NCBI RefSeq assembly: GCF_025822765.1
Contig: NZ_JACKUK010000011.1
Span: forward strand, 1-64,000
Reading direction: 5' to 3'
Length of the DNA: 64,000 bases
Source: Mycobacterium barrassiae
Lineage (GTDB): Bacteria > Actinomycetota > Actinomycetes > Mycobacteriales > Mycobacteriaceae
Part shown: in pieces, positions 36,093 to 64,000 of the stretch
Layout: each line of letters begins with the position of its first letter
How positions within the stretch are numbered: the stretch's first letter is position 1
Program-made: the position numbers and the translations under genes
The notes under the pieces: model-generated
What the model was told of the DNA's origin: nothing
Database searches by the model: none
The model's input: only the letters and a program-made list of their open reading frames with translations

Positions 36093-36870
36093 CGACGAAC
36101 GAGGACCGTCGTGATCTCCAGGATTCGCCAGCGAGCGACGCCCCGAATGCGCAAAGTCACGTTCATGCACTACGCGGCTTTGCGAGGAGGGGTCCTCGCG
36201 GTCGTGTGCGACGGTCCGGGTTCCCTCGTGACTCGGGGGGCGCTGGTCGTTGTGAACCCGGCAGGCGGCCCGATTGTGATCAAAGCAACTCCGGCATTGA
36301 GCTGGGGTCTCGCATGTTTGCGGGGGCTCCCTGATTGATTGCTATATCCGCATCCGCATTTCACATTGAGAGATAGCCCACACCCCTGTAGTGGGCGAAG
36401 CTCACTCGATGTGCACCAAATTGTGATGCTGGCAACCTCTTGAGTAGCCCATAAACCGTCGCTAAGCTCTCTGAGCCGTTGGCCGGAGAGAATCTAGCGA
36501 CCATGGCAGCCGTCCTATAGCCGATGGACGACTGTCGCGCAGCGGACTTTTGCACGAATGTTTGCTGGGCGCGTCTTTCCATTGGGAAAGATTCAGCTAG
36601 ACCTCTGGCTGCCGGCTTAGCGAGCCCACAGGAATTTCACATTCGCGCCGATCTCGCAAAGAGAGGTTTCTGCAGGATATAACGCCAGCCTGGGCGGACG
36701 GGAAAGGAATTGACGCCACAGTTAATAGTCAAGGTAAGCTTGCTAAAGTTTGCTGAGGAGCCCAACCCTGGGAACCTCGTGAGAATGATTTGCCCACCAT
36801 TTCAACCTGCACTAGGTTTGCGGTAGGCTCGCCATCGGTTTGCGGTAACCGACGAACAACATGGAGAGAC

Positions 36871-37101
36871 GTGAGCATCAATCCGTTCGACGACGACAGC
36901 GGCAGCTTCTTCGTCTTGGTCAACGACGAGGAGCAGCACAGCCTCTGGCCAAGCTTTGCCGACGTGCCAGACGGCTGGCGGGTGGTTTACGGCGAGGCTG
37001 ACCGTGCAACGTGTTTGGAGTACGTCGAGAAGAACTGGCCGGACATAAGGCCGAAGAGCCTGCGAGAGCGGTTGGCGCAGGACGGGGCTCTTGACGGCTA
37101 G
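36871..37101 (+). CDS. mbtH: MbtH-like NRPS accessory protein
   Basis: A 76-residue MbtH-family protein that binds and activates adenylation domains. [68 protein letters not shown] carries all family landmarks: NPFDD, the V-x-N-x-E-x-x-(H)SLWP block and the W-x-D-x-RP-x-SL end. GTG 36871 has GGAGAG five to six bases upstream; an ATG-headed extension upstream is not conserved. It ends just before mps1 and is presumably co-transcribed. In GPL producers this gene is essential for Mps1/Mps2 activity. A degenerate copy exists at 57408-57484. Confidence 0.95.
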
Positions 37102-37126
37102 TCAGTGCGGTGGGGAGGGCGCGCGC

Positions 37127-43100: not shown

Positions 43101-46100
43101 CGGGTCTGGGTGCGCGTCCTGGACAGCGGGTGGCGTTGTTGCTTCCGCGGACGCCGGAGGCGATCGCGGCGATCGTGGCGGTGCTCAAGACCGGGGCGGC
43201 GTATCTGCCGATCGATCCGGCCCACCCGGATGCCCGAATCGAGTTCGTGGTGGGGGATGCGGCGCCGGTCGCGGCGGTCACGACGGCGGATCTGCGGGCG
43301 CGGCTGGAATCGTTCGAGGTTCCGATCATCGACGTCCACGACGCGGTAGTCGGAGAGGCGCCCGCCGGTGAGGCGGTGGTGTCGGTGGCGACGCCCGATG
43401 ATGTGGCCTACATCATCTATACGTCGGGGACGACGGGTAAGCCCAAGGGGGTTGCGGTCACTCACCGCAACGTCACTCGGTTGTTGGAATCGCTTGATGT
43501 CGAGCTGTCGCTGGGTCAGGTGTGGACGCAGTGCCACTCGCTGGCATTCGACTATTCGGTGTGGGAGATCTGGGGCGCGCTGCTTTACGGCGGGCGTCTG
43601 CTGATCGTGCCGGACGCGGTGGTGCGCTCGCCGGAAGAGTTGCACGCGCTGCTGGTCAGTGAGCAGGTCAGTGTCCTGAGCCAGACCCCGTCGGCGTTCT
43701 ATGCCTTGCAGACGGCGGACGCGTTGCAGCCGGAGCTGGGTCAGCAGCTCAAACTGCAGACCGTGGTCTTCGGCGGCGAAGCGCTTGAACCGCAACGCCT
43801 TTCGACATGGCTGCACAGCCATCCTGGCTTGCCGCGGATGATCAACATGTACGGCATCACCGAGACCACGGTGCACGCCTCGTTCCGTGAGATCGGTATC
43901 GGGGACGTCGCCGACAGCTCCAGCCCGATCGGTGTGCCCTTGGAGCACTTGGCGTTCTTCGTCCTCGACGAGTGGATGCGCCAGGTGCCCGTCGGGGTCA
44001 CCGGCGAGTTGTACGTGGCCGGGGCGGGGCTGGCCACCGGCTACGTGGGTCGTTCCGATCTGACGTCGACGCGGTTCGTCGCGTGCCCGTTCGGGGCGCC
44101 GGGGACGCGGATGTACCGCACCGGGGACCTGGTCCGCTGGGGCGCCGACGGGCAGCTGCGCTATGAGGGCCGCGCCGACAAGCAGGTCAAGATCCGCGGC
44201 TACCGCATCGAGCTTGGCGAGATCCAGGCCGCACTGGCCGGCCTCGACGGGGTGGATCAGGCGGCGGTCATCGTGCGCGAAGACCGCCCCGGCGACAAGC
44301 GACTGGTTGGCTATATAACTGGGGCCGCCGACGCGACGACGGTGCGCACCAAGCTCGGTGAGCGGCTGCCGACCTACATGGTGCCCGCCGCGGTGGTGGT
44401 GCTGGACGCGCTGCCGTTGACCGTCAACGGCAAGCTCGACACCCGCGCCCTGCCGGCACCGGAGTTCTCCGACACCGACAACTACCGCGCGCCGTCGACT
44501 GCCTTCGAGGAGATCCTTGCCGGCATCTTCGCCGAAGTCCTCGGTGTGGAGCGGGTCAGTGTCGATGACTCGTTCTTCGACCTGGGTGGCGACAGCATCC
44601 TGTCGATGCAGGTGGTCGCCCGCGCCAGGGCCGCCGGGCTGGTGTGCCGCCCGCGTGACATCTTCGTCGAACAGACCGTCGCCCGGCTGGCACAGGTCAC
44701 GGTCTTCGCCGACGCCGAGGGCGGCGCGGTCGATGAGGGCATCGGGCCGTTGGTGTCCACCCCGATCATGGAGTGGCTCTACGGTCTGGACGGTCCGGTC
44801 GATCAGTTCAACCAGACCGTCGTCTTGCAGGCGCCCACGGGAGTCGGTGAAGACGATGTGGTCGTCGTCCTTCAGGCGCTGCTGGATCGGCACGCCATGT
44901 TGCGGCTGCTCGTCGATGACGACGGCGCCGGTGGCCGATCGCTGAGTGTCCCCGAGGTCGGCGCCGTCGATGCGCGCGCGTGCTTGCACGCGGTGGACAC
45001 CTTCTCCGATGGGGCGCTGGCCGAAGCGCGGGAGTTGTTGAGCCCGGCCGCCGGAGCGATGGTCAGCGCACTGTGGGTCCGCGACACCAGTCGGTTGGTG
45101 CTGCTGATTCACCATCTGGCCGTGGATGCCGTGTCGTGGCGAATCCTGTTGGAGGACATCAACATCGCCTGGGCCCAGCATCACAGCGGTCAGGCTGTCG
45201 CGCTACCGACCGGCGGGACGTCGTTCCAACGCTGGGCGGCGATACTCGACGAGCATGCCCGCGTGCCTGCGGTCGTCGAGCTGGCCGATACCTGGCGCCG
45301 GGTGAGCGAGGTGCCTGCTGCGCTGCCGGCGGTGCAACCCGAGATCGATACCTACGCCAATGCCGGCCAGCTGTCGATGTCGCTGGACACCGAGACCACG
45401 CGGCTGCTGCTCGGGGAGGTGCCCGCGGCGTATCACGCCGGCGTGCAGGACATCCTGCTGATCGCGTTCGCGCTGGCCTTCGCGGAGTTCCTGGGCTCCG
45501 ACACGCCGCTGGGCATCGATGTCGAGGGTCACGGGCGTCAGGAAGAGCTGGCCGATGCGGACCTGTCGCGCACGGTGGGCTGGTTCACGACCAAGTACCC
45601 GGTCGCGCTGAATGTCAATGGGGTCAACTGGGAGCAGGTCGTCGCCGGCGATCCTGCGTTGGGGCCGCTGATCAAGAACGTCAAGGAGCAGCTGCGGTCG
45701 CTGCCTGACGGGTTGACCTACGGCCTGCTGCGCTACATGAATCCCGACGTCGAACTGGCTGGATCTGATCCGGCGATCGGGTTCAACTACCTGGGCCGCC
45801 TCGGTGCGGCCGCCGCCGACCTCTCCGAGGACCTCTGGCGCATCGACCAGGACGGGGTGGCGATCACCTCCGCGGCCACCGCGGTGCCCACACCGCTGGG
45901 ACACACCGTGGAGCTCAACGCGGGCACGATGGACACCGAGTCCGGACCGCACCTTCATGCCACGTGGACGTGGGCGCTGTCGGCCCTCGATCACGAGCAG
46001 ATCAGCCGGTTGGGCCAGTTGTGGTTCGACGCGCTGGCCGGCATCTGCGCGCATGTACAGCAGGGCGGAGGCGGACTGACTCCTTCCGACGTCCTCCCGG

Positions 46101-47401
46101 CACGGGTGAGCCAGGAGCAGATCGACGAGCTGACCCAGCACTACCAGCTTGCCGATGTGCTGCCGCTGACCCCGCTGCAGCAGGGCCTGCTGTTCCACAC
46201 CGGCGCCGCACCCGGCAACGAAGACCTCTACGCGGTCCAGCTGGACATCGCCATCACCGGGCAATTGGATGCGGAGCGCCTTCGCGACGCGGTGCAGAAC
46301 ATGATCAATCGCCATCCCAACCTGGTGGCCCGGTTCAACGAAGACTTCGGCGAGCCGGTACAGGTGCTCGTGTCCGATCCGCCGCTGACCTGGCAGTATC
46401 TCGAGTTCGACGGCTCCGAAGCCGATATCGAGAACCAGATCGAGCAGTTCAGCACCGCCGAACGCACGGCGGTGTGCGACCTGGTCGACGGGCTCCCATT
46501 CCGGGCCGCCCTGATCCGCACCGCGGAAGACCAGTACCGGTTCGTGCTCACCAACCACCACATCGTGCTCGACGGTTGGTCGAAGCCGATCCTGCTGCAG
46601 GAGATCTTCGCCGGCTACTTCGGCGCCCGGTTGCCCGCACCGGCGTCGTACCGGCGGTTCATCACCTGGCTGGCGGCACAGGACCGCGGGGCTGCGCAGG
46701 CCGCGTGGCGTAAGGCGTTCGCCGGATTCGAGCATCCGACCCTGGTGGGCCCGCCTGGCCGCTTGTCCCTGGGGCAACGCGGCGTTGAGGACTTCCACAT
46801 ATCTGCGGAGACCACGCAGGCTCTCAGCGAGCTGGCCCGTTCATGCCGCACCACGGTCAGCACGGTGCTGCAAGCCGGCTGGGCGCAGATGCTGATCTGG
46901 CTGACCGGACAGCACGACGTGGCCTTCGGAACCGCCGTTTCTGGACGGCCAGTTGATTTGCCAGGTGCCGAATCAATGATCGGCCTTTTGATCAATACCG
47001 TGCCAGTACGGGCCAGCGTCACACCCACAACCACAATTGCCGATTTGCTGAACCAGTTACAGAGCGCCTACACTGAGACGTTAGAACACCAACATTTGGC
47101 GCTGAACGAGATCCATCGCGCTACCGGACACGACCAACTGTTCGACACCGTCTTCATATACGAGAACTACCCGATCGACACCGCGGGCATGTTGAACGTG
47201 CCCGAAATGGCGATCACCAGCTACACCAACCGCGAGTACAACCACTACCCGCTGTCGGTACAGGCCGTGCCCGGTAACGAATTGGGTCTACGCGTCGAAT
47301 TCGATAAGGACGTGTTCACCACCGCCCGCATCGGAAAGCTGGTCGACAGATTCCGGCGCGTGCTCGAAGCGATGACCGCAGACACGAGGGGGAAGTCATG
47401 A
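37127..47401 (+). CDS. mps1: nonribosomal peptide synthetase Mps1 (modules 1-2 of the GPL peptide)
   Basis: A 3424-residue NRPS, C-A-T-E-C-A-T-E-C. The starter condensation domain (HHISVDGVG, near residue 136) acylates the first residue. A1 spans about 450-930 ([10 protein letters not shown] near 603). T1 Ser is 982 (GGDSILS). E1 spans about 1030-1480 ([21 protein letters not shown]). C2 is about 1500-1920 (HHIVVDGWS), A2 about 1950-2440, T2 Ser 2490, E2 about 2540-2985, and C3 about 3010-3420 (HHIVLDGWS). Pocket residues by alignment to GrsA read D-A-W-T-A-V-G-V-C-K for A1 (Phe-like) and D-Y-W-S-V-G-M-V-H-K for A2 (Thr-like). The E domains predict D-Phe and D-allo-Thr. GTG 37127 has GGGGAGGG upstream; TTG 37091, overlapping mbtH, is an alternative. 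The stop overlaps mps2 (ATGA). Confidence 0.95.
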
Positions 47402-50400
47402 GTGCTGACGCCACCAGGACACTTCTGTCACTCGACCTCCTCGACGACGACGAGCACGACCAGCTGGCCGAGTGGGGCAACCGCGCGATCCTGACCGAGC
47501 CGGCCCGTCACCGCGACTCGATCCCGGTGTTGTTCAACTCCCAGGTGGTCCGCGCCCCGGAAGCCGTGGCACTGGTATGCGGTGAGCAGTCGTGGACGTA
47601 TCGCGAGCTCGACGAGGCCGCCAACCGCTTGGCAAACCTGCTGATCAGCTACGGCGCCGAACCGGGTAAGACGGTAGCGCTGCTGATTCCGCGGTCTGCG
47701 GAGGCGATCATCTCGATCCTGGCGGTGCTCAAGACCGGGGCGGCGTATCTGCCGATGGATCCCGCGCACCCCGATGAGCGCATCGCGTTCATGCTGGGCG
47801 ACGCCGAGCCGATCGTCGCCGTGACCACCGCGGACCTGCGTACGCGTCTGGGCGGTGCGGACCTGACGGTGATCGACCTCGACGACCCCGCAATCGACAA
47901 GCAACCCAGCACCGAGGTGGCCACGCCCGCACCAGAGGATCTGGCGTATATGACGTATACGTCGGGCACGACGGGCGTGCCGAAGGCGGTGGCGGTTACT
48001 CACGGAAATGTGACGTCATTGGTGGAGACGTTGCATGCCGACTTGCCTGCGGGGCCGGGGCAGGTGTGGTCGCAGTGGCATTCGTTGGTTTTCGATGTCT
48101 CGGTGTGGGAGATCTGGGGTGCGCTGCTGCACGGGGGCCGGCTGGTGGTGGTGCCAGAGGCGGTGGCCAGTTCGCCGATCGACTTCCACAACTTGTTGGT
48201 CACCGAGAAGGTGAGCGTGCTGTGCCAGACGCCGTCGGCGGCGGGGATGTTGTCGACCGAGGAGCTGGAGTCCACGACGTTGGTGGTGGCAGGGGAGGCC
48301 TGCCCGACGGAGTTGGTGGATCGGTGGGCCACCGCCGATCGGGTCATGATCAATGCCTATGGGCCGACTGAAGGCACCATCTACGCAGCGATGAGTACAC
48401 CGTTGGTGGCCGGTTCGGGTGTGGCGCCGATTGGGTCGCCAGTGCCGGGTGCGGCGTTGATGGTTCTGGATAAGTGGTTGCGTCCCGCTCCCGAGGGTGT
48501 GGTCGGTGAGTTGTATATCGCCGGTGAAGGTGTGGCTGCGGGATATGTGCGTCGGGCGGGGTTGACGGCCTCGCGGTTTGTGGCGTGCCCGTTCGGTGGA
48601 CCGGGTGCGCGGATGTATCGCACCGGCGATTTGGTTCGTTGGGGCGAGGATGGCCAGCTGCAGTATCTGGGTCGCGCCGACGAGCAGGTCAAGATCCGTG
48701 GCTACCGCATCGAGTTGGGTGAGGTACAGGCCGCGCTGGCCAAACTCGACGGCGTCGAGCACGCGGTCGTCATTGCCCGCGAGGACCGTCCCGGCGACAA
48801 GCGTCTCGTCGGCTACATCACCGGAACCGCCGAGCCGGCCCAGCTGCGCAGCGCACTGGCAGAACGACTTCCCGCCTACATGGTCCCGGTCGCGATCGTG
48901 GTGTTGGAGACGATGCCGCTGACGGTCAACGGCAAGTTGGACAAGCGTGCACTGCCCGCGCCGGAATACCGCGCAGTCGGTGCGGACTATCGGGCTCCCG
49001 GCACTCCGGTGGAGGAGATCCTGGCGGCGATCTATTCGCAGGTGCTCGGTGTCGAGCGCGTCGGTGTCGACGACTCGTTCTTCGACCTCGGTGGCGACAG
49101 CATCCTGTCGATGCAGGTGGTCGCCCGCGCCCGGGCCGCCGGGCTGCTCTGCCGTCCCCGGGACATCTTCGTGGAACAAACCGTGGCCCGGCTGGCCACG
49201 GTGGCCAAGGTGGTCGGTGGTGAAGCCGCGGTCATCGACGAGGGCATCGGCCCCGTAGAGGCCACCCCGATCATCCGCTGGCTGCAGAGCGTTGAGGGTC
49301 CGGTCGACGAGTTCAACCAGACTCTGGTACTGCAGGCCCCTGCCGGCGTCACCGAGGACGACGTGTTCGTCGTGCTGCAGGCCCTGTTGGACCGCCACGC
49401 GACGCTGCGCCTGCAGGTCGAGGACGACGGTGCCGGTGAGTGGTCATTGCGGGTGCCTGCAGTCGGTTCGGCCGACGCGCGTGCCTGCCTCTACGTCGTC
49501 GATGAGCTGACGGATGAGGCCATCGCCGGGGCGCGGTCGCGGCTGAATCTGGGTGCCGGGGCGATGCTCAGCGCGTTGTGGGTGCCCACCACCGGTGAGT
49601 TGGCGTTGATGATTCACCACCTGGCCGTCGATGGGGTGTCCTGGCGGATCCTGCTGGAGGACCTCAACATCGCCTGGGCGCTGCACCACAGCGGTCAGCC
49701 GGTGGAGCTTCCGACGGGGGGTACGTCGTTCCAGCACTGGGCCGTGCTGCTGGAAGAGCATGCGCGCCGCCCCGAGGTCGTCGCCCACGCCGAGGCGTGG
49801 CGGCAGGTGACGGCGGCGCCGGTGGCGTTGCCTGCGGTCGATCCTGCGGTCGATACCTACATCAGTGCCAAGGAAATGTCGGTGTCTTTGGACGCCGCGA
49901 CCACCCGGTCGCTGTTGGGTGAAGTGCCTGCGGCGTTCCATGCCGGGGTGCAGGACATCCTGTTGATCGCGTTCGGCTTGGCCTGGACCGAGTTCCTGGG
50001 TACCGGTGACGCGCCGGTCGGTTTCGATGTGGAGGGCCATGGCCGCCACGAGGAGCTGGACCCTGAGGTCGACCTGTCGCGCACGGTGGGCTGGTTCACC
50101 ACCAAGTACCCGGTCGCGCTGAACGTCGGCGATATCGACTGGGATCAAGTGGTGGCCGGTGATGCCGGGTTGGGCCCGATCATCAAGGCGGCCAAGGAGC
50201 AGTTGCGGGCGTTGCCGGATCCGTTGACCTACGGTCTGCTGCGGTATCTGAATCCCGATGTGGAGTTGGGTGGTTCGGACCCGGTGATCGGGTTCAACTA
50301 CCTCGGCCGCCTCGGCGCAGGCGCAGCCGATCTGTCCGAGGACATGTGGCGCATCAGCGAGGACGGCCTGAAGGTTGCGGCCGCAGCGGCGGCAGTCCCG

Positions 50401-53400
50401 ATGCCGTTGATGCACACCGTGGAGCTCAACGCGGGCACGCTGGATACCGATGCGGGTCCGCAGTTGCAGGCGTCGTGGACGTGGGCGCCGTCGGCATTGG
50501 ACGAGGCCGCCGTTGAGCGGTTGAGCCGATTGTGGTTCGACGCGTTGACCGGGATCTGCGCGCACGTGCGCGCCGGTGGTGGTGGGTTGACGCCGTCGGA
50601 TCTGGCCCCGGCGCGGTTGACTCAGCAGCAGATCGACCAGCTGACCAGCGAACACGACATCGTCGATGTGCTGCCGTTGACCCCACTGCAGCAGGGCCTG
50701 CTGTTCCACTCCACCATCGCCCGCGGCACCGGCGACGACGTGTACGCCGTGCAGTTGGACATCACTGTCACCGGCGCCCTCGACGCTCACCGCTTCCGCG
50801 ACGCAGTGCAGAACGTCGTGACCCGCCATCCCAACCTGGCGGCCCGCTTCTCTGAGCAGTTCGGTGAACCGGTGCAGATCATCCCGGCCGATCCGGTGAT
50901 GGCGTGGCGGTATCTCGATCTGCGCTGGGATGACCGCAAGTCCGATGCCGAGGTCGAGCAGCTGTGCGCTGCTGAGCGTGCTGCGGTTTGCGACCTCGCC
51001 GACCGGCCGACGTTCCGCGCCGCCCTGATCCGCACCGCGGGCAACCAGCACCGGTGCGTGCTGACCTTCCACCACATCGTCATCGATGGTTGGTCGCTGC
51101 CGGTTCTGTTGCAGGAGGTGCTTGCCGGCTACTTCGGACAGCGCCTGCCCGCGCCGGTGCCGTACCGCAACTTCGTGACGTGGTTGGCCACCGAGGATCG
51201 CGAGGCCGCACGCGAGGCCTGGCGCGAGATCCTGTCCGGATTCGAAACCCCCACCCTGGTGGCACCTCCGGCCCTACCGGGTCCGCGCGGCGTGGAATCG
51301 TATCGCCTGTCCGCCGAGATCACCGGCGCGCTCAGCGAGCTCGCACGGTCGTGCCACACGACAGTCAACACCGTGTTGCAGGCCGGCTGGGCGCAGCTGT
51401 TGATGGCCATGACCGGCCAGCACGATGTCGCCTTCGGCACCGCAGTGTCGGGCCGGCCCGCCGAGTTGGCGGGCGCCGAATCGATCATCGGTCTGCTGAT
51501 CAACACCGTGCCGATTCGCGCGGACATGACCGCCGCCGCCACGGTCGCTGACCTGCTCGCCCAGTTGCAGCGCCACCACAACGACACCGTCGAACACGAG
51601 CACTTGGCTCTCAACGAGATCCACCACGTCGCCGGTCATGAACGACTGTTCGACACCCTGTTCCTGTACGAGAGCTACCCGATCGACGCCAGCGCGTTCG
51701 CAGGTGTCCACGAGCTGGCCATCACCGAATTCAAGAACCGCGAGTACAACCACTACCCGCTCTCCGTCATGGTCCTGCCGGGCCACGAATTGGAGATTCG
51801 CGTCGAATTCGACTCTGACATCTTCGATGTCGCGCGCATCGAATCGCTGATCGGACGCTTCGAGCGGCTCCTGGCCGCCATGATCGCCGACCCGCAGCGG
51901 CCGCTGGCCTCGATCGACGGCCTCGATGCCGAGGAGCATGACCAGCTTGATGGGTGGGCGAACCGGGCGGTGTTGAGCCAACCGGTGGGTGCGCCGAAGT
52001 CCATTCCCGAGGTGTTCGCCGAGCAGGTGGACCGCGACCCGGCGGCGGTGGCGCTGACGTTCGAGGGTCGGTCGATGACCTACGGCGAGCTCGATGAGGC
52101 CGCCAACGCGCTGGCCAACCTGTTGGCCATGCACGGCGCGGGTCCGGGCCAATCAGTGGCTCTCTTGGTGCCGCGTTCCAATGACGCAATTGTCGGGATG
52201 TTGGCGATCCTCAAGACCGGGGCGGCGTATCTGCCGATCGATCCGTCGGTGCCCGAGGCCCGGCTGGAGTTCATGCTGGGCGACGCCAAGCCGATCGCCG
52301 CAGTCACAACGGCCGACCTGCGTGGCCGCCTGGACGGCGCGGATCTGGCGGTCGTCGAAATCGACGACCCCGCAGACTATTTCGCCCATGACAAGCTGCT
52401 GACCCCAGCTGCGGACGACGTGGCGTACCTGATCTATACGTCGGGGACGACTGGTGTGCCTAAGGGTGTGGCGGTGTCGCATGTGAATGTGACGCAGACG
52501 TTGGCGTCGTTGCACCCGGATATGCCTGCGGGTGCGGGGCAGGTGTGGTCGCAGTGGCACTCGTTGGTGTTCGACGTGTCGGTGTGGGAGATCTGGGGTG
52601 CGCTGCTGCACGGCGCGCGTCTGGTGATCGTCCCCGAAGGTGTGGCGGGCTCACCGAGCGAGCTGCACGACCTGCTGGTGCGCGAAAAGGTCAGCGTGCT
52701 GTATCAGACCCCGTCCGCGGCGGGCATGCTCTCGCCGGAGGGTCTGGAGTCCACCACCCTGGTCGTCGCCGGGGAGGCCTGCCCCACAGAGTTGGTGGAT
52801 CGGTGGGCGCCGGGTCGGGTGATGCTCAATGCCTACGGCCCGACCGAGGCCACGATCTACGCGGCGATCAGCGCCCCACTGACGGCGGGCTCGCATGAGG
52901 CGCCGATCGGTTCGCCCGTGCCCGGTGGGGCGACGTTCGTCCTCGATGAATGGTTGCGCCCGGTACCCGCGGGTGCGGTCGGTGAGCTGTATCTGGCCGG
53001 GCGCGGCGTCACGGTCGGCTATGTCAACCGTGGCGAGCTGACCGCATCGCGGTTTGTGGCGTGCCCGTTCGGCGAGCCCGGGGCGCGGATGTATCGCACC
53101 GGCGACCTGGTCCGCTGGGATGCGGACGGACAGCTGCAGTACCTGGGCCGCGCCGATGATCAGGTCAAGATCCGCGGCTACCGCATCGAACTCGGCGAAA
53201 TCCAGGCCGCCCTGGCTGAGCTGGACGGGGTCGAGCAGGCGGTGGTGATCGCCCGCGAGGACCGCCCCGGCGACAAGCGCCTCGTCGGCTACATCACCGG
53301 CACCGCCGAGCCCGCCGAGTTGCGCGCCCAGCTGGGGCAGCGCCTGCCCGGCTATATGGTGCCCGCGGCGGTGGTGGTGCTCGAGGCGTTGCCGTTGACG

Positions 53401-55053
53401 GTCAACGGCAAGCTGGATCGGCGTGCGTTGCCGGCCCCGGAGTATCAGACCGCGACGCGGTATCGGGCGCCGTCGAATGCGATCGAAGAGGTCATCGCCG
53501 GGATCTTCGCCCAGGTGCTGGGTGTGGACCGCGTCGGTGTCGATGATTCGTTCTTCGATCTGGGTGGCGATTCGATCTCGGCGATGCGGGTCATCGCCGC
53601 GGTCAACACCGCCCTGGACGCGCAGTTCGCGGTGCGCACGTTGTTCGAGTCCCCGACGGTGGCCGGGCTGGCCGGCCAGTGGGATCCCGATGCCGCGGTG
53701 GCGGTGCATGGTCCGAGTTTCGCGGCGGTGCATCCGCTGGTCGACGGGCGGGTGCATGCCCGCGAGCTGACGTTGGACAAGTTCCTCGACGAGACGACAC
53801 TGGCCACTGCTCCGACGCTGCCGCGGCCCGGTGCCGAGGTGCGGACGGTGTTGTTGACCGGGGCGACCGGGTTCTTGGGTCGTTATCTGGTGTTGGAGCT
53901 GCTGGAGCAGCTCGCCGCCGTGGACGGCACGTTGGTGTGCTTGGTGCGCGGTAAGGACGACGCTGATGCGCGGCGTCGTCTGGAGAAGACCTTCGACAGT
54001 GGTGACCCGCATCTGCTGGCCCGTTTCCACGAGCTGGCCGCCGACCGTCTGCAGGTCGTCGCCGGCGACAAGGGTGCGGAGTCGATGGGGCTGGATCCCC
54101 AGACCTGGCAGCAGTTGGCGGAGTCGGTCGATCTGATCGTCGACTCGGCGGCGTTCGTCAACAGCGTCCTGCCCTATAGCGAGTTGTTCGCCCCCAATGT
54201 GGTGGGGACGGCGGAGTTGATTCGGTTTGCGTTGACCAGCAAGCTCAAGCCGTATGCGTTTGTGTCGACTTCGGATGTGGGTCGTCAGATCGAGCCGTCG
54301 GTGTTCACCGAGGACGCCGATATCCGCGCCATCAGTGCGACGCGGGTCGTGGATGGCAGTTATGCCAACGGGTATGGCAACAGCAAGTGGGCCGGTGAGG
54401 TGCTGCTGCGTGAGGCCCACGATTTGTGTGGTCTGCCGGTGGCGGTGTTCCGGTCGGGCATGATCATGGCCGATCCGAGCTATGCCGGTCAGCTCAACGT
54501 GTCGGACACGGTGACGCGGATGGTGCTGTCGGTGGTGGCCACCGGGGTGGCCCCGGAGTCGTTCTATCAGCTGGATGCTGAGGGTAAGCGGCAGCGGGCG
54601 CATTTCGATGGTCTGCCGGTGGATTTCGTGGCTGAGGCGATCGCGACCCTGGGTACGCGGTTGGCCGAGGGGTTTGAGACCTATCACGTGATGAACCCCC
54701 ATGACGATGGCATCGGGATCGATCAGTATGTGGATTGGTTGATCGAGGCCGGGTATCCGATCGAGCGCGTCGCTGACTTCAACGAGTGGGTGAGGCGGTT
54801 CGAGGCCGGGCTGCAGGGGTTGCCGGAGGCTCAGCGCCAGCAATCGGTGTTGCAGATGCTGCAGTTGCTGCTGGGCCACACTGATGGTCAGGTGGTGGCG
54901 CCGGAGCCGACGCTGGGATCGTATGCGCCTGCGGATCGGTTCCACGCCGCGGTCAAAGAAGCCAAGATCGGACCCGACCACGACATCCCGCACATCAACG
55001 CATCGGTCATCGTCAAGTACGTCACCGATTTGCAGCTACTCGGACTGCTCTAG
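47398..55053 (+). CDS. mps2: nonribosomal peptide synthetase Mps2 with terminal reductase (modules 3-4)
   Basis: A 2551-residue NRPS, A-T-E-C-A-T-R. It begins with an adenylation domain (about 55-520), completing the module whose condensation domain ends Mps1. T Ser is 568, E spans about 620-1065, C about 1090-1500 (HHIVIDGWS), A about 1540-2015, and T Ser is 2059 (GGDSISAMR). A thioester-reductase domain runs from about 2145 to the end ([13 protein letters not shown] near 2153; catalytic YGNSK near 2326). Pocket residues read D-V-W-C-V-A-A-I-Y-K and D-V-W-Y-V-A-A-I-Y-K; in GPL producers these two modules use Ala. The E domain gives D-Ala and the reductase releases L-alaninol. ATG overlaps the mps1 stop by 4 bp. 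Confidence 0.95.
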
Positions 55054-55055
55054 GC

Positions 55056-55835
55056 ATGTGGGGTCCGGTTCTGGGGCTGGCGCTGCTGATTGCGCTCAAT
55101 CCGATCCTTCTCGGGTTCGTGCTGCTCGTCATCTCCCGTCCGAGGCCCGTGCCGAACCTGTTCGTCTACTGGCTGGGCGCCATGCTCACGAACCTGCCGG
55201 TGTTCGTGGGTCCGCTGGTCTTGCTTCATGTGACACCGGGATTCGCCTCGTTTGCGGACGGTCTGCTCCGATCAACGGAGACATCCCCCGGCACAATCCT
55301 GCCGGGCGCCCTGGCTCTCGGTGTGCTGTTGCTGTCGATTGCGGCGGTGATGGCGGCGCGACCTCGGGTACGTGAGCGCGCGAAAGTGTCCGTCGGTGGC
55401 GGCGATTCGTCCGACACCGAGCTGGAGCCGGAGACGCCGAGCGGCGCAAAGGGTTTGGTTGTCAAAGGTGTCGCCGCTTTTCAGCGGCTGTACGGTCGCC
55501 TCACCGAAACCTGGGAGAACGGCTCGCTGTGGGTGTCTTTCATATTCGGCCTGATGTATGTCCCATCAGCGACGCTCCTGGTGCTCGTAGACACTGCCAT
55601 CCTGTCGTCGGGAGCCGGGATTGGTGAACAGATTGTCGCTGCGACCGCCTATGTGGTCGGTATGCTCGCGGTCCTCGAAATCGTCCTCGTGAGCTGTTTG
55701 ATTGCGCCGAGGAAAACGGAAGCCGTGTTGCGACCGGTGCACGAGTGGGCACGGAGAAACAATCGGCAGATCTTTATCGTCTTCTTCGTGCTGATCGGAG
55801 TTTGGCAACTCCTCAGAGGCTTCGGCATCGCCTGA
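55056..55835 (+). CDS. gap: GPL addressing protein Gap (integral membrane)
   Basis: A 259-residue membrane protein, 2 bp after mps2. About six hydrophobic helices: LGLALLIALNPILLGFVLLVI, NLFVYWLGAMLTNLPVFVGPLVLL, GTILPGALALGVLLLSIAAVMA, then a charged loop at about 110-150, SLWVSFIFGLMYVPSATLLVLVDTAIL, VAATAYVVGMLAVLEIVLVSCLI and IFIVFFVLIGVWQLLRGF. Topology and position match Gap, required for GPL transport to the surface. Immediate downstream placement and the tiny spacing imply one operon with the NRPS genes. Confidence 0.9.
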   Translation: MWGPVLGLALLIALNPILLGFVLLVISRPRPVPNLFVYWLGAMLTNLPVFVGPLVLLHVTPGFASFADGLLRSTETSPGTILPGALALGVLLLSIAAVMAARPRVRERAKVSVGGGDSSDTELEPETPSGAKGLVVKGVAAFQRLYGRLTETWENGSLWVSFIFGLMYVPSATLLVLVDTAILSSGAGIGEQIVAATAYVVGMLAVLEIVLVSCLIAPRKTEAVLRPVHEWARRNNRQIFIVFFVLIGVWQLLRGFGIA

Positions 55836-55940: not shown

Positions 55941-56279
55941 ATGATCGCTCGGTCGTTGACCAAGTTGACCGCCGCGTTTGGCGGCTTGGCGCTGTCATTG
56001 GCCGCTGGGGCTGCGATCGCTTCGGCCCAGCCCGACTTCGAACCGATGATCAATACCACCTGCACCTATGACCAGGCGATGGCCGCGATACATGCGGAGA
56101 ACCCGATGGCGGCCCAGTATCTCGATTCATCGCCGCCGAACCTGGAATTTCTGCGGGTGTTCATCGCGTCGACGCCCGATCAGCGCAGAAATCTGATCAG
56201 CCAGGTGCAGAACAATCCGGGCGCTGCAGAGGCGTTCCCCATCATCCAGCAGATGTTTGCCAGCTGCCCCAACTACTGA
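55941..56279 (+). CDS. secreted hemophore-related (Rv0203-like) protein
   Basis: A 112-residue exported protein. A basic N-terminus, hydrophobic core LTAAFGGLALSLAAGAAIASAQP and probable Ala-x-Ala cleavage near residue 30 form a signal peptide. The mature part (FEPMINTTCTYDQAMAAIHAENPMAAQYLDSS...RRNLISQVQNNPGAAEAFPIIQQMFASCPNY) has the two cysteines and helical pattern of the mycobacterial hemophore-related family (Rv0203-like). ATG 55941 has AGGAGGGG upstream. Why it lies between gap and a methyltransferase is unclear; a role in GPL production is not indicated. Confidence 0.8.
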   Translation: MIARSLTKLTAAFGGLALSLAAGAAIASAQPDFEPMINTTCTYDQAMAAIHAENPMAAQYLDSSPPNLEFLRVFIASTPDQRRNLISQVQNNPGAAEAFPIIQQMFASCPNY

Positions 56280-56444
56280 GCTGATCGAACGCGCTCTCTG
56301 ATCACCAGCTGGCCTGGCCATGCGTCGCGATAACGATCGGCACACATCATCGGCCGGGTGGCCGTGAATTGCCGAGCAGGAATCGGCGCTCACGGGATGC
56401 CCGTGCGAAGTGTCCATCTGGCACTGCGGCTGAACGCACCGTTG

Positions 56445-56456
56445 TATGGTTCGGCC
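56445..56456 (+). promoter_or_regulatory. leaderless promoter -10 element upstream of a methyltransferase gene
   Basis: TATGGT (56445-56450) and a 6-nt spacer precede GTG 56457. Same element and GGCCGTG context as at 4391 and 5334. Confidence 0.55.
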
Positions 56457-57251
56457 GTGGGGGTAATGCAAACGTGGCCCAAGAAATTTCGCGTTATGTG
56501 GTTTGCGCTGCGTACAGGGTATTGGGTGCCCAGGACGTTTCTGCCCGATGTGTATTCCGATGACGCGCTGATCTGTTTCAACAGTGATGCGTTTCGTGAC
56601 GATCCGGTGTTTCAGCGTGCCTACCAACGTGGCGTGCAGGCGCTCGGTGGCCAAGATTTTTACCACTGGGAGTGGCGGTTCCACGTCGGCCTGTGGGCGG
56701 CGCGGAGCGCCAGCAAGCTCGAGGGTGATTTCGTCGAGTGCGGTGTCAGCCATGGGTTTTTGAGTAGTGGCATCATGCAGACGCTGGACTGGGACCGCCT
56801 GGGCAAGACGTTTTATCTGCTCGATACGTACGGCGGGATGGATCCGCGTTTCGTCACCGATGTGGAGCGCGAAACAGGAGCGCTGGCCAAGAGCCAGGCG
56901 GCGCTCGACTTCGGCGTCTACGCGAATTCGGTCGAGAGTGTCCAGAAGAATTTCGCGGAGTGGAACAACGTACGCATCATTGCCGGGACGGTGCCGGAAA
57001 CTCTGGATCAGGTCGACGCCGAGAAGGTGGCGTACCTGCATATCGACATGAACTGCGCGCCACCCGAGGTTGCGGCATTGCGCTTTTTCTGGCCGCGATT
57101 GACCCCCGGGGCGTTTGTCCTGCTGGACGATTATGCACAGCGGGGACGCGATGAACAGCGCCTCGCGATGGATGGCGTGGCAGATGAGTTGGGCGTCCCG
57201 ATCTGCACACTGCCCACCGGTCAGGGCCTGATTATGAAGCCGGCCTGCTGA
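56457..57251 (+). CDS. TylF-like sugar O-methyltransferase, paralogue C
   Basis: A 264-residue methyltransferase very close to paralogue B (5347-6156). They share FLPDVYSDDALICFNSDAFRDDP, GDFVECGVSHGFLSS (SAM motif I), DVERETGALAKSQAALDFGVYANSVESVQKNFAEWNNVRIIAGTVPETLDQVD and YLHIDMNCAPPEVAALRFFWPRLTPGAFVLLDDYAQRGRDEQR. Start GTG 56457 by the conserved leaderless promoter; the frame is open further upstream. It lies between the two NRPS sets, 50 kb from its paralogues. Probable GPL sugar O-methyltransferase, perhaps associated with the product of the second NRPS. Confidence 0.83.
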   Translation: MGVMQTWPKKFRVMWFALRTGYWVPRTFLPDVYSDDALICFNSDAFRDDPVFQRAYQRGVQALGGQDFYHWEWRFHVGLWAARSASKLEGDFVECGVSHGFLSSGIMQTLDWDRLGKTFYLLDTYGGMDPRFVTDVERETGALAKSQAALDFGVYANSVESVQKNFAEWNNVRIIAGTVPETLDQVDAEKVAYLHIDMNCAPPEVAALRFFWPRLTPGAFVLLDDYAQRGRDEQRLAMDGVADELGVPICTLPTGQGLIMKPAC

Positions 57252-57746: not shown

Positions 57747-57788
57747 GCGCTGGCGGCCATGACCGCCTGTCTGGGGGGACAGTCATGA
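57747..57788 (+). pseudogene. remnant of the 3' end of a second mps1
   Basis: Codons 57747-57788 read [13 protein letters not shown] then TGA, overlapping the next NRPS start as ATGA. Mps1 ends [13 protein letters not shown] with the same ATGA overlap onto mps2. Over the last 33 bp the two loci match at 23 positions without gaps. Just upstream FEDIGVGRL in another frame recalls the end of the condensation domain. No other mps1 sequence is recognisable in 57485-57746. The stretch is short, so the call is moderate. Confidence 0.55.
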
Positions 57789-60700
57789 CGACCGATGCGG
57801 GACGACGGTTGTGGTCTATTGATGTGCTCGATGATGATGAGCGCGACCAGCTTGCTGGATGGGGTAACCAGGCGATCCTGGCCGAGCCTGCCCGTAACCG
57901 GGACTCGATTACGGCGTTGTTCGGTTCGCAGGTCGCTCGCATCCCAGACGCGGTGGCGTTGGTGTGCGGTGAGCAGTGGTGGACCTATCGCGAGTTGGAT
58001 GAAGCTGCCAATAGGCTGGCGCAAGCGCTGGTGAGCCACGGCGCAGGCCCGGGTGAGGTTGTGGCGCTGCTGGTTCCGCGGTCTTCGGAGGCGATCATCG
58101 CGATCCTGGCGGTGCTCAAAACCGGCGCGGCGTACCTACCGGTCGATCCCGCGCACCCCGACGATCGAGTCGCATTCGTGCTCGGTGACGCGGCGCCCGT
58201 CGTCGCCATCAGCACTACGAAGCTGCGGGCGCGGCTCGGATCGTTCGATCTTCCCGTCGTCGATGTCGACGATCACTCAGGGGCGTTGTCCACGACGGCC
58301 CTGACCACCCCGTCGCCCGACGACGTCGCCTACGTCATCTATACCTCCGGCACCACCGGTACGCCCAAAGGTGTTGCTATCACCCACCACAACGTCACGC
58401 AGTTGCTGTCCTCGCTCGACGCGGCGTTACCGGGTCCGGGCGTGTGGGCTTTGTGTCATTCGTTGGCCTTCGATGTCTCAGCCTGGGAGATCTTGGCCCC
58501 GCTGGTGCGTGGTGGCCGACTGGTGGTGGTGTCGGAGGCGGTGGCACGCTCTCCGGAAGAGCTTCGCGAGGTGTTGATACGCGAAGGTGTCACGGTACTT
58601 ACCCAGACTCCCTCTGCGGCAGGGGTTTTACCCCCCGAGGGTTTGGAGTCGATGACGTTGGTGGCGGCGGGGGAGGCGTGCTCTGCAGAGTTGGTGGATC
58701 GGTGGGGCAGCGGCGACCGGGTGATGCTCAACGCGTATGGGCCGACCGAAACCACGATGTGCGTGACGATCAGCGCCCCATTGACGCCCGGAACGGCTGC
58801 GGTGCCGATCGGTAAGCCGGTGCCCGGCGCTGCACTGTTTGTGTTGGATGCGTGGTTGCGGCCGGTAGCCGCCGGCTTGGTCGGCGAGTTGTATGTGGCC
58901 GGGCGGGGTGTCGGCGTGGGCTATGTCCATCGTGGTGGTTTGACGACGTCACGATTTGTGGCGTGCCCGTTCGGGGCGCCGGGGACGCGGATGTATCGCA
59001 CCGGCGACCTGGTGCGGTGGGGTGACGACGGCCAGCTGCAGTATCTGGGTCGTGCTGATGAGCAGGTCAAGATCCGTGGCTACCGCGTCGAACTCGGTGA
59101 GGTGCAGACCGCGCTCGCCGCACTGGAGGGGGTCGAGCAGGCCGCAGTGATCGCCCGCGAGGACCGCCCCGGCGACAGGCGGCTAGTGGGATATATCGTC
59201 GAATCCTCCACTGGAGCAGTGGATTTGACCCGGATTCGAACTACCTTAGCCGCCCGGCTGCCGAGTTATATGGTCCCGACTGCAGTGGTAGCACTCGACG
59301 CGCTGCCGCTGACAGTCAACGGCAAGTTGGACAAGCGCGCCCTGCCGGCGCCGGAATACGGCGGCGTTGGTAACGAGTATCGGGCCCCGAGTTCTCCGGT
59401 GGAGGAGATCCTAACGGCGATTTATTCGCAGGTGCTCGGTGTGGAGCGCGTGGGTGTCGATGACTCGTTTTTCGAGCTGGGCGGCGACAGCATCCTGTCG
59501 ATGCAGGTGGTGGCACACGCCCGGGCGGCTGGGGTGCTGTGCCGGCCGCGTGACATCTTCGTGGAACAAACTGTCGCCCGGCTGGCCACGGTCGCGGAGA
59601 TCGCCAGCGATGCGGACGATGTCATCGATGACGGCGTCGGCGAAGTGGTGCCGACGCCGATCATCCGCTGGTTGCACGACGTTGAGGGTCCGGTCGATGA
59701 GTTCAACCAGACTTTGGTGCTGCAGGCTCCTGCGGGAGTCACCGAGGACGACGTGGTCGCCGTGCTACAAGCCCTGCTGGATCGCCATGCCGCGCTGCGG
59801 CTGCGCGTCGACGACGATGGCTCTGGCGGATGGTCGTTGACGGTGCCCGAACCCGGTTCAGTCGATGCCGCCGAGCGAGTTCACGCCGTAAATGCGCTGA
59901 CCGATGAGGCCGTTGCCGGGGCGCGGTCACGGTTGAAACTGGGCGTCGGAGCGATGGTCAGTGCGTTGTGGGTGCCGAGTACCCGCGAGTTGGCGTTGAT
60001 GATTCACCACTTGGCCGTGGATGCGGTGTCGTGGCGAATCTTGTTGGAGGACATCAACATCGCCTGGGCCCAGCATCACAGTGGGCAGGCTGTCGCGCTT
60101 CCGACCGGCGGGACGTCGTTCCAACGCTGGGCGGCGATTCTTGACGAGCACGCGCGCGTGCCTGCGGTGGTTGAGCTGGCTGATACCTGGCGCCGGGTGA
60201 GTGAGGTGCCTGCTGCGCTGCCTGCGGTGCAACCCGAGATCGATACCTACGCCAACGCCGGTCAGCTGTCGATGTCGCTGGACACCGAGACCACGCGGTC
60301 GCTGCTCGGCGAGGTGCCCGCGGCGTATCACGCCGGGGTGCAGGACATCCTGTTGATCGCGTTCGGGCTGGCTTGGACGGAGTTCCTGGGTGCCGACACG
60401 CCGCTGGGCATCGATGTGGAGGGTCACGGGCGTCAGGAAGAGCTGGCTGATGCGGACCTGTCGCGCACGGTGGGTTGGTTCACGACGAAGTATCCGGTCG
60501 CGCTGAATGTCGGTGGTATCGACTGGGATCAGGTATCCGCCGGTGATGCCGGGTTGAGTCCGATCATCAAGTCGGCCAAGGAGCAGTTGCGGGCGTTACC
60601 GGATCCGCTGACCTACGGGCTGCTGCGCTACATGAATCCGGATGTGGATCTGGCTGGTTCGGATCCGGCGATCGGCTTCAACTACCTGGGCCGCCTCGGC

Positions 60701-63700
60701 GCGACCGCCGCCGACGTCTCCGAGGAGTTGTGGTGCATCAGCCCGGCCAGCCGGGCCACCGCGGATGCAGCGGCGGCAGTGGCGATGCCGTTGGCTCATA
60801 CCGTGGAATTGAATGCGGGCACGTTGAATACCGAGGCTGGCCCGATGCTTCAGGCCAACTGGTTATGGGCTCCGTCGGCGCTCGATGCCGACAAGGTGCG
60901 GCGGCTCAGCCGGTTGTGGTTTGACGCGTTGATCGGGATCTGTGCGCATGTCCGCGCCGGCGGTGGTGGGTTGACGCCGTCGGATCTGGCACCGGCGCGG
61001 TTGACTCAGCAGCAGATCGACGAGCTGACCAGCGACCACGACGTGCACGATGTATTCCCGTTGACCCCGCTGCAGCAGGGGCTGCTGTTCCATACGCGCC
61101 TTGCGCAAGGTTCCGGCGATGACGTCTACGCCGTTCAGCTGGACATCACCATCACCGGTCCGCTCGATTCGCAGCGGTTGCGGGAGGCGATGGACTCAGT
61201 GGTTCACCGTCACCCCCATCTGGTGGCCCGCTTCTCCGAACAGTTCGGCGAACCAGTGCAGATCCTCGCGGCCGACCCCGACTTCGGGTGGCGGTACTGC
61301 GAACTCGATACCGACGACGAGGTCGACGACCTGCGTGCGGGCGAGCGGGCGGCGGTATGCCAGCTGGCCGACGGGCTTCCGTTCCGGGCAGCGCTGATCC
61401 GGACTGCCGAGGACCGGTATGAGTTCGTGCTGACCGTCCATCACATCGTCATCGATGGCTGGTCGCTACCGGTTCTGTTGCGGGAGATCTTCGCCGGCTA
61501 TTGCGGACACCGGTTACCGGCGCCGGTGCCAGTGCGCAAGTTCGTGACGTGGTTGGCCGGTCAGGACCGCGGAACGGCAGAGGCGGTGTGGGCCAAGGTA
61601 TTCGAGGGGTTCGACACCCCCACTCTGGTCGCCCCTGCAGATCGGCTGGGTCCACGCGGCGTCGCTTCGTATCGGATGTCGGAGGAGACGACGCGGGCGC
61701 TGGGGGAAGTGGCGCGGGCCCAACGCACCACGGTGAGCACAGTGTTGCAGGCCGGGTGGGCGCGGCTGTTGATGGCGGTGACCGGTCAGCGTGATGTGGC
61801 GTTCGGCGCGGTGACGTCAGGACGCCCGGCTGAGCTCGCGGGCGCGGAATCGATAATCGGACTGCTGATCAACACCGTGCCGGTGCGGGCCGACATGACC
61901 GCCACCCTGACGGTGTCCGATCTGCTCACGCGGTTGCAGCGCCACCACAACGACACCGTCGAGCATGAGCATCTGGCACTGGCGGATATTCATCGGGTCG
62001 TCGGACAGGATCGCTTGTTTGACACGTTGTTCGTGTATGAGAACTATCCGGTCGATCTCGCGGCGCTATCGGGGGCACAGGACCTTTCGGTCACCGGGTT
62101 CAGTGCTCGCGAGTACAACCACTATCCGTTGACGGTGGCGGTGACGCCGGGGCCGCAGTTGAGTCTGCGGGTGGAGTACGCCTCAGAGGTGTTCGACGCG
62201 GCGGCCGTCGACGCGATAGCCCGTCGCTTCCAACGGATTCTGGCCGTCGCGGTCACTGATCCCGATCAGCGGTTGTCCGCCATCGATGTCCTGGATGCCG
62301 ACGAGCATGACCAGCTTGATGGGTGGGCGAACCGGGCGGTGTTGAGTCGGCCGATGGATGCGCCGAAGTCCATTCCTGCGGTGTTCGCCGAGCAGGTGGA
62401 CCGCGACCCGACGGCGGTGGCGTTGACGTTCGAGGGTCGGTCGATGACCTACGGCGAGCTCGATGGCGTCGCCAACAGGCTGGCCCATCGACTGTCAGGT
62501 CTCGGTGCAGGCCCGGGTCAGGTTGTGGCGCTGCTGATCCCGCGGTCCGCGGAAGCGATCGTCGCGATGCTGGCGGTGCTCAAGACGGGGGCGGCGTATC
62601 TGCCGATGGACCCCGCGCACCCCGATGCCCGGATCGCGTTCATGATCGAAGACGCCGCGCCTGTCGCCGTGATCACCATGGCGGATCTTTGTTCGCGTCT
62701 TGATCAGTGTGACGTGGCGGTCCTTGATGTCGACGATCCCTCTCTCGCGGAAGAGTCCGGCGGCGCTTCACTACCGGTGCCCGCGCCGAATGATGTGGCG
62801 TATCTGATTTACACGTCGGGGACGACTGGTGTGCCTAAGGGTGTGGCGGTGTCGCATGTGAATGTGACGCAGGCGTTGGAGTTGTTGCCTGTGGAGATGC
62901 CTGCGGGTGCGGGTCAGGTGTGGTCGCAGTGGCATTCGTTGGTGTTTGACGTCTCGGTGTGGGAGATCTGGGGTGCGCTGTTGCATGGTGCGCGGTTGGT
63001 GATTGTGCCTGAGGCGGTGGCGGGTTCACCGACTGAGCTGCATGAGTTGTTGGTGCGTGAGCAGGTCAGTGTGTTGTATCAGACGCCGTCGGCGGCGGGG
63101 ATGCTCTCGCCGCAGGGTTTGGAGTCGACCACGTTGGTGGTGGCTGGTGAGGCGTGTCCGACGGAGTTGGTGGATCGGTGGGCGCCGGGGCGGGTGATGA
63201 TCAACGCTTATGGTCCTACTGAGGCCACGATTTATGCGGCGATCAGTGCTCCGTTGGTGGCGGGTTCGCATGAGGCGCCGATCGGGTCGCCGGTTGCTGG
63301 TGGTGCGACGTTTGTGCTTGATGAGTGGTTGCGTCCGGTGCCTGCGGGTGCGGTGGGTGAGTTGTATCTGGCTGGGCGTGGTGTGACGGTGGGTTATGTG
63401 AACCGTGGCGGGTTGACGGCGTCGCGGTTTGTGGCGTGTCCGTTCGGGGAGCCGGGGGCGCGGATGTATCGCACCGGGGATCTGGTGCGTTGGGGTGCTG
63501 ATGGGCAGTTGCAGTATCTGGGTCGTGCTGATGATCAGGTCAAGATCCGCGGCTATCGCATCGAACTCGGCGAGATTCAGGCCGCGCTGGCCCGGGTGGA
63601 GGGCGTCGTGCAGGCCGCGGTGATCGTGCGCGAGGACCGGTCCGGCGATAAGCGACTGGTGGGTTATGTCACCGAATCGGCAACCGGTGCAGTGGATATC

Positions 63701-64000
63701 GCCGCGATACGACCGATGCTGGCGCAGCGGTTGCCCGGCTATATGGTGCCTGCGGCGGTGGTGGTGTTGGAGTCGTTGCCGTTGACGGTCAATGGCAAGT
63801 TGGACCGGCGGGCGTTGCCGGCGCCGGAGTATCAGACCGCGGCTCGTTATCGGGCTCCTTCTAACGCGATCGAAGAGGTCATTGCCGGCATCTTCGCTCA
63901 GGTGTTGGGTGTGGAGCGCGTTGGTGTCGATGACTCGTTCTTCGATCTGGGTGGGGACTCGATCTCGGCGATGCGAGTGATCGCCGCGGTCAACACCGCC
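57785..64000 (+). CDS. second Mps2-like NRPS, partial (runs off window)
   Basis: 2072 codons are open from ATG 57785 to the window end. Architecture is A-T-E-C-A-T, as in Mps2. The start [42 protein letters not shown] parallels Mps2. T Ser residues are at 569 and 2059 (Mps2: 568 and 2059), so the proteins are colinear and a reductase domain is expected beyond the window. E lies at about 620-1065 and C at about 1085-1500 (HHIVIDGWS). The first adenylation pocket reads D-V-W-T-V-A-A-M-C-K, unlike Mps2's D-V-W-C-V-A-A-I-Y-K and nearer to aromatic/Phe codes. The second is identical to Mps2's last, D-V-W-Y-V-A-A-I-Y-K (Ala-type). It has no starter module and must receive a peptide from an Mps1-like partner. 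Parts are near-identical to mps1 or mps2 DNA. GGGGGGACAGTC precedes the start. Confidence 0.92.

Follow-up and report, generated by a model that had tools for sequence, protein, structure and literature searches.

A second Mps2-type synthetase gene with a predicted Phe-type first pocket behind the single mps1 of Mycobacterium barrassiae, and a candidate fork in glycopeptidolipid synthesis

Glycopeptidolipids (GPLs) coat many mycobacteria and influence colony form and surface behavior. We analyzed a 64,000-base stretch of Mycobacterium barrassiae DNA (NZ_JACKUK010000011.1, positions 1 to 64,000; the window), which opens contig C11 (183,474 bases, left end) in a genome of 5.9 Mb (G000) and holds a GPL locus with two genes for Mps2-type nonribosomal peptide synthetases (NRPSs), mps2 and a paralogue that we call mps2B. 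All genes of the locus lie on the plus strand. An MbtH-like protein gene (36790 to 37101; Pfam PF03621, 4.6e-28) stands immediately 5' of mps1 (37091 to 47401) and is followed in order by mps2 (47398 to 55053), a gene for a gap-like membrane protein of the Sap/gap family (55056 to 55835; PF11139, 2.5e-45), one for a small hemophore-related protein (55941 to 56279; TIGR04529, 4e-16), one for a TylF-type O-methyltransferase (56358 to 57251; PF05711, 9.8e-13), and mps2B, which starts at 57785 and continues beyond the window edge at 64000 to contig base 65455. An Rfam scan of the 64-kb window gave no matches. Mps1 has 3436 residues in the domain order C-A-T-E-C-A-T-E-C (C, condensation; A, adenylation; T, carrier; E, epimerization), with pockets DAWTAVGVC for phenylalanine (Phe) and DYWSVGMVH for threonine (Thr). 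Its frame, which ends at 47401, closes on a free C-terminal condensation domain (46154 to 47392; PF00668, 1.7e-78, profile positions 3 to 439 of 456), the proposed branch point. Mps2 has 2551 residues in the order A-T-E-C-A-T-R (R, reductase).

The mps2B frame is free of stop codons throughout and encodes 2556 residues that, as in Mps2, follow the order A-T-E-C-A-T-R with a bare A domain first and a thioester reductase last. Pfam recognized two AMP-binding, two Condensation, and two PP-binding domains together with NAD_binding_4 (2.8e-63) in Mps2B, and the reductase also matched Thioester-redct (2.8e-95). Within the window lie the first A domain (57929 to 59344), the codon of carrier serine 569 (59489 to 59491), the internal condensation domain (61046 to 62317; PF00668, 7.4e-82), the second A domain (62393 to 63817), and the codon of carrier serine 2059 (63959 to 63961). 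Core motifs of these domains were present: the carrier serines, the A-domain motifs, HHxxxD, and the reductase motifs. The first-pass annotation had described a complete-looking Mps2 paralogue 2.7 kb past the mps2 stop, colinear with Mps2, and had proposed looking beyond the window for the reductase. Each point held: the spacing is 2.73 kb, the two proteins are identical at 1960 of 2564 positions (76%), the carrier serines fall at 569/2059 in Mps2B and 568/2059 in Mps2, and the frame is whole to 65455 with no frameshift and a complete reductase. Mps2B thus has the setting of an Mps2-type enzyme, with mbtH, mps1, and gap in the same GPL locus, as well as an alaninol-type second pocket and a reductase, but its first pocket is not of the D-alanine (D-Ala) type found in Mps2.

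The first pocket reads DVWTVAAMC in Mps2B and DVWCVAAIY in Mps2 (DVWTVAAMCK against DVWCVAAIYK when the tenth residue is included), while the second, Ala-type pocket is DVWYVAAIY in both. Pocket positions are presumably those of the GrsA numbering; position 278 was first read by eye from the motif in three of the four Mps2 and Mps2B domains, and a later run printed all four. For reference, we collected pockets from 41 loci where an NRPS frame ends beside an Mps2-type frame, using the plus strand of fetched loci and joined regions. Eight loci were dropped (four second copies of species already included, the M. barrassiae locus itself, G257, L056, and L080), and 33 were kept; M. neglectum and M. 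lehmannii are represented there by their canonical mps2. The kept loci yielded 33 usable codes each for the second A domain of Mps1 (Mps1-A2) and the first of Mps2 (Mps2-A1), 28 for Mps1-A1, and 27 for Mps2-A2, with five incompletely readable codes excluded from Mps1-A1 and six from Mps2-A2. The class labels, Phe, alloThr, Ala, and alaninol, follow the core given in the accessible portion of PMC3537567 and are assumed for all species.

Scored by per-position log-likelihood, the first A domain of Mps2B reached -7.5 with the Phe (Mps1-A1) class and -15.2 and -15.5 with the two Ala classes. This classifier made 5 errors among 121 codes when single codes were left out and 5 among 26 when all copies of a code were left out; each of these last five confused one Ala class with the other. 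Of the 28 usable Mps1-A1 codes, 27 have T at 278 and 27 have C at 331, and neither residue appears at its position in any of the 60 usable Mps2 codes. The altered pocket, the reading of these two residues as Phe-type features, and the suggestion that a specificity prediction be run on both paralogues all came from the first-pass annotation, and the canonical GPL pockets support the reading, with Mps2B-A1 classed with Phe. These results support a Phe-type first A domain in Mps2B, with its substrate predicted from the pocket. In a separate observation, M. rhizamassiliense and M. numidiamassiliense (L056 and L080) have Mps1-Mps2-like pairs with further NRPS genes behind them, in which three of the four pockets (DVWGMAAVY, DFWSVGMVH, DYWS(I/V)AGVY, and DIWCLGEMW) are noncanonical, which shows that the Mps1-Mps2 layout occurs with other codes too.

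A relative with a complete genome of 6.2 Mb (G039) keeps the order mps1, mps2, gap, methyltransferase, mps2B, and five-module NRPS, where gap, the methyltransferase, and other small genes were assigned by eye. Its mps2B is whole (2544 residues), and its canonical mps2 frame is broken into 1804 and 796 residues (G039:C1:5052306-5059951), which may reflect biology or a sequencing effect. The ten pocket residues of Mps2B are the same in both genomes despite 67 differences, two of which are gaps, over residues 1 to 560. Because mps2B recurs in G039 at the equivalent place and with an identical pocket, it is not a chance occurrence. Between the two genomes, the ratio of nonsynonymous to synonymous substitution rates (dN/dS) for mps2B was 0.165 overall, 0.115 in the first A domain, and 0.058 in the pocket region, at a dS of about 0.6. 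Corresponding values were 0.105 for mps1 and 0.069 for mps2 residues 1 to 1700, which places mps2B under constraint, albeit weaker than that on its neighbors. Intact motifs and purifying selection rule out a decaying copy. Two further relatives (G271 and G328) have a single mps2 at this site followed by gtf and then htpG, both identified by eye.

Paralogues at this locus are unevenly similar. In M. barrassiae, several 100-residue windows across the second A domain and the reductase are 92 to 96% identical between mps2B and mps2, but residues 201 to 300 only 63%. Residues 740 to 838 of Mps2B (60002 to 60298) equal residues 2673 to 2771 of Mps1 (45107 to 45403), 99 identical residues in the second epimerization domain of Mps1, and DNA identity over this stretch is 93.9% against 74% and 86% on its flanks. 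Judging from these alignments, an older exchange between mps1 and mps2B in the epimerization domain is likely. A recent conversion of mps2B with mps2 or mps1 in this genome was rejected on the length of the longest exact tracts, which are just 74 and 42 nucleotides. We likewise rejected recent copying of the first A domain of Mps2B from Mps1-A1 or the five-module NRPS, as it forms its own clade with that of G039; when it was compared with 412 A-domain segments from the fetched loci, its best matches outside these two mps2B genes reached 66 to 67%.

We examined which enzymes could feed a synthetase that begins with a bare A domain. The Pfam condensation model gave 23 matches in the M. barrassiae genome, counting split pieces and epimerization domains (17 on C11, 5 on C35, and 1 on C42). 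Among these, Mps1 is the only NRPS frame that clearly closes on an intact, free condensation domain, with the C35 frames taken without a domain-by-domain map; this supports the claim that Mps1 alone offers an upstream C-terminal condensation domain. The C35 NRPS genes, which look like a mycobactin cluster, are 30 to 39% identical to the Mps2 query, and one C35 frame has a weak partial condensation match (51 bits) read as an epimerization-type domain. No second mps1 was found in this genome by the Mps2 search, the Pfam condensation model, or a search with the Mps1 terminal domain. Against nine genomes, the top match of the terminal domain was an Mps1-type frame in all nine (cut at a contig end in G146). 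At E <= 1e-60, matches in M. barrassiae, G039, M. neglectum (G169), and G257 were limited to Mps1, Mps2-types, the five-module NRPS, and a mycobactin-like frame, and in G086 only its Mps1, its Mps2, and a distant orphan Mps2-type gene matched. The genomes G050, G240, G146, and G291 have additional NRPS frames of 8 to 10 thousand residues, and the partner is therefore not unique there. One open-ended upstream partner together with two or more downstream partners lacking a C domain of their own was thus found in M. barrassiae, G039, M. neglectum, and G257. The N-terminal linker of Mps2B scored 54.1 bits with the linker profile, a value within both the range of paired enzymes (42.3 to 80.8) and that of internal linkers (9.7 to 57.4).

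The nearest candidate for another partner lies just downstream, where three overlapping NRPS frames of 1393, about 3717, and 1251 residues occupy contig positions 67419 to 85999 (L016:419-18999). Their combined order is C-A-T-C-A-T-C-A-T-E-C-A-T-C-A-T-R, with two C domains split across frame ends. Both frame breaks fall on exact two-copy 85-base tandem repeats in repeated C domains, and in G039 the NRPS is a single frame of 6142 residues with five A domains. This lipopeptide-type line of five modules brings a starter C domain and a reductase of its own, so it has no need of Mps2B; we rejected it as a second mps1, and the intact downstream mps1 partner that the first-pass annotation had asked about was not found. 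Large NRPSs with a DFWT..VMW pocket among their modules also lie close behind or downstream of mps2 at L018, L052, L108, L110, and L112, indicating that lipopeptide NRPSs stand beside GPL genes in several species.

M. neglectum, M. lehmannii, and G257 likewise have two Mps2-type genes in tandem behind a single mps1. In these three, one copy has a Phe-type second pocket, the one for the aminoalcohol, the changed second A domain groups with Mps1-A1 domains (support 100/98), and the first module, to which Mps1 must dock, is still Ala-type. Both Mps2-type genes of M. lehmannii (L060/L101, NZ_NKCN01000017.1) share an exact tract of 3305 nucleotides from codon 21, beyond which they diverge sharply within the condensation domain; this may stem from a natural swap of half the enzyme or from the assembly. 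A search for two mps2 genes in other GPL loci, as the first-pass annotation had advised, therefore uncovered the arrangement in at least four further genomes. Its remark that no such fork had been described stands to the extent that no title or abstract opening among the open-licence papers listed pointed to a GPL locus with two mps2 genes, with older subscription GPL chemistry outside that scope, but the arrangement itself recurs, with residue 4 rather than 3 changed in three cases. The same literature yielded no paper on a glycopeptidolipid together with phenylalaninol, and a survey of GPL genes in the M. neoaurum clade (PMC6917791) does not name mps1 or mps2 in its main text.

Orphan genes of the Mps2 type, lacking any NRPS in the 5 to 11 kb upstream stretch examined and having changed first or second pockets, were present at L033, L036, L046, L057, L068, L073, L075, L078, L113, L116, L119, and L120, in species of the fortuitum/peregrinum group and of Mycobacteroides. 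Second pockets of the type DYWSxxGxY characterize the orphans of M. septicum, M. peregrinum (two strains), strains GA-1841 and URHD0025, M. aquaticum (a frame of only 1962 residues), and G086, and first pockets of the type DFWT..VMW those of M. franklinii, Mycobacteroides sp. CBMA 271, and G050. Plasmids of M. intracellulare and M. avium (NZ_CP022224.1, NZ_AP020328.1, and others) carry NRPS genes with about 73% DNA identity to most of mps1.

Considering the single open-ended Mps1 and two Mps2-type enzymes that each start with a bare A domain, we think that the locus probably encodes a forked GPL line, in which one Mps1 feeds Mps2 and Mps2B as alternatives and two cores are made. Mps1 would build acyl-D-Phe-D-alloThr and present it at its open-ended condensation domain, and Mps2 and Mps2B would compete for it, docking via the split C-A linker. 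Mps2 would add D-Ala and L-Ala and release the chain reductively as alaninol, giving the ordinary core D-Phe-D-alloThr-D-Ala-L-alaninol. By our inference, Mps2B would instead accept the chain from Mps1, add Phe, epimerized to D-Phe, and then Ala, with alaninol release, giving D-Phe-D-alloThr-D-Phe-L-alaninol. Condensation domains are not stringent filters according to the argument of PMC8097286, so a single C domain could plausibly serve both Ala and Phe. Partner choice would set residue 3 in M. barrassiae; in M. neglectum, M. lehmannii, and G257 it would set the aminoalcohol.

An enzyme that opens on an A domain might also start for itself. A(Phe)-T-E starter modules occur in gramicidin S and tyrocidine synthetases, and Mps2B, which has no C domain in front and resembles two-module reductive NRPSs in its A-T-E-C-A-T-R order, could on this account make a free D-Phe-alaninol dipeptide or a cyclized aldehyde product unrelated to GPLs. 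Its match to the NCBIfam AusA (aureusimine) model, 947.8 bits, points the same way but falls far under the cutoff of 2500 and is equaled by Mps2 (944.1). However, Mps2B retains a C-A-linker-like N terminus, as in Mps2. Moreover, a free starter would need neither the Ala-type first module, like that for GPL residue 3, kept in the three sister forks, nor the exact match to the first module of Mps2 that M. lehmannii shows from residue 61 onward. We consider self-starting the main rival but an unlikely one.

The two remaining explanations are weaker. Mps2B could be fed by Mps1 and still load Ala, or either residue, yielding only the usual GPL core, perhaps under other conditions. Pocket codes are only predictions, and the closeness of the second A domain and reductase to those of Mps2 would suit such redundancy, but the absence of T278 and C331 from the usable Mps2 codes and the sameness of the pocket in M. 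barrassiae and G039 make it improbable. That mps2B belongs to the five-module NRPS it adjoins, or is a mere donor for gene conversion, strikes us as very improbable: the two lie side by side, paralogues in this family do swap sequence, and 99 residues are identical to Mps1, but the five-module line has no open end, and mps2B is under purifying selection.

The available text of the GPL papers (PMC3537567, PMC1885439) describes a constant tripeptide-aminoalcohol core carrying a variable sugar pattern. We tentatively raise the possibility, less secure than the fork itself, that GPL synthetases form a general plug-in system, many mycobacteria having one Mps1 and interchangeable Mps2 cassettes, near or far, and displaying several cores rather than a constant one. 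Swapped A domains in such cassettes might supply Phe as residue 3 here and, in M. neglectum, M. lehmannii, and G257, an aminoalcohol of the Phe type; the distant orphans of M. septicum, M. peregrinum, G086, and M. franklinii would add other pockets. If the forked line is real, natural forks with different pocket changes exist in several lineages, making the peptide core variable within one cell, and they provide a naturally tested case of a single condensation domain serving two acceptors.

Among known systems, the vatiamide pathway reportedly passes one upstream line to alternative downstream NRPS partners, as proposed here, although it is said to be a cyanobacterial hybrid of polyketide synthase and NRPS whose partners are not recent paralogues of one another. 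That pathway (Moss 2019) is mentioned in the accessible part of PMC10949194. The synthetase for anabaenopeptin likewise has two interchangeable NRPS subunits on one assembly line, in the form of alternative starter modules (Rouhiainen 2010, as cited in PMC8402340 and PMC8097286), but its fork is at the start, whereas the one proposed here would lie in the second half. As far as PMC8097286 describes it, A-domain recombination is similar in that specificity is exchanged naturally inside otherwise conserved modules; there the exchange alters one line, whereas here the old and new versions coexist. The Mps1-Mps2 GPL synthetase is known from M. smegmatis, M. abscessus/chelonae, and M. avium (PMC3537567, PMC1885439), and the M. 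barrassiae locus resembles it in the expected module order for a four-residue core, the MbtH-like gene ahead, gap after mps2, and reductive release. In that system there is one mps2, and the core is called constant (D-Phe-D-alloThr-D-Ala-L-alaninol), whereas in M. barrassiae two mps2-type genes with differing first pockets stand behind one mps1.
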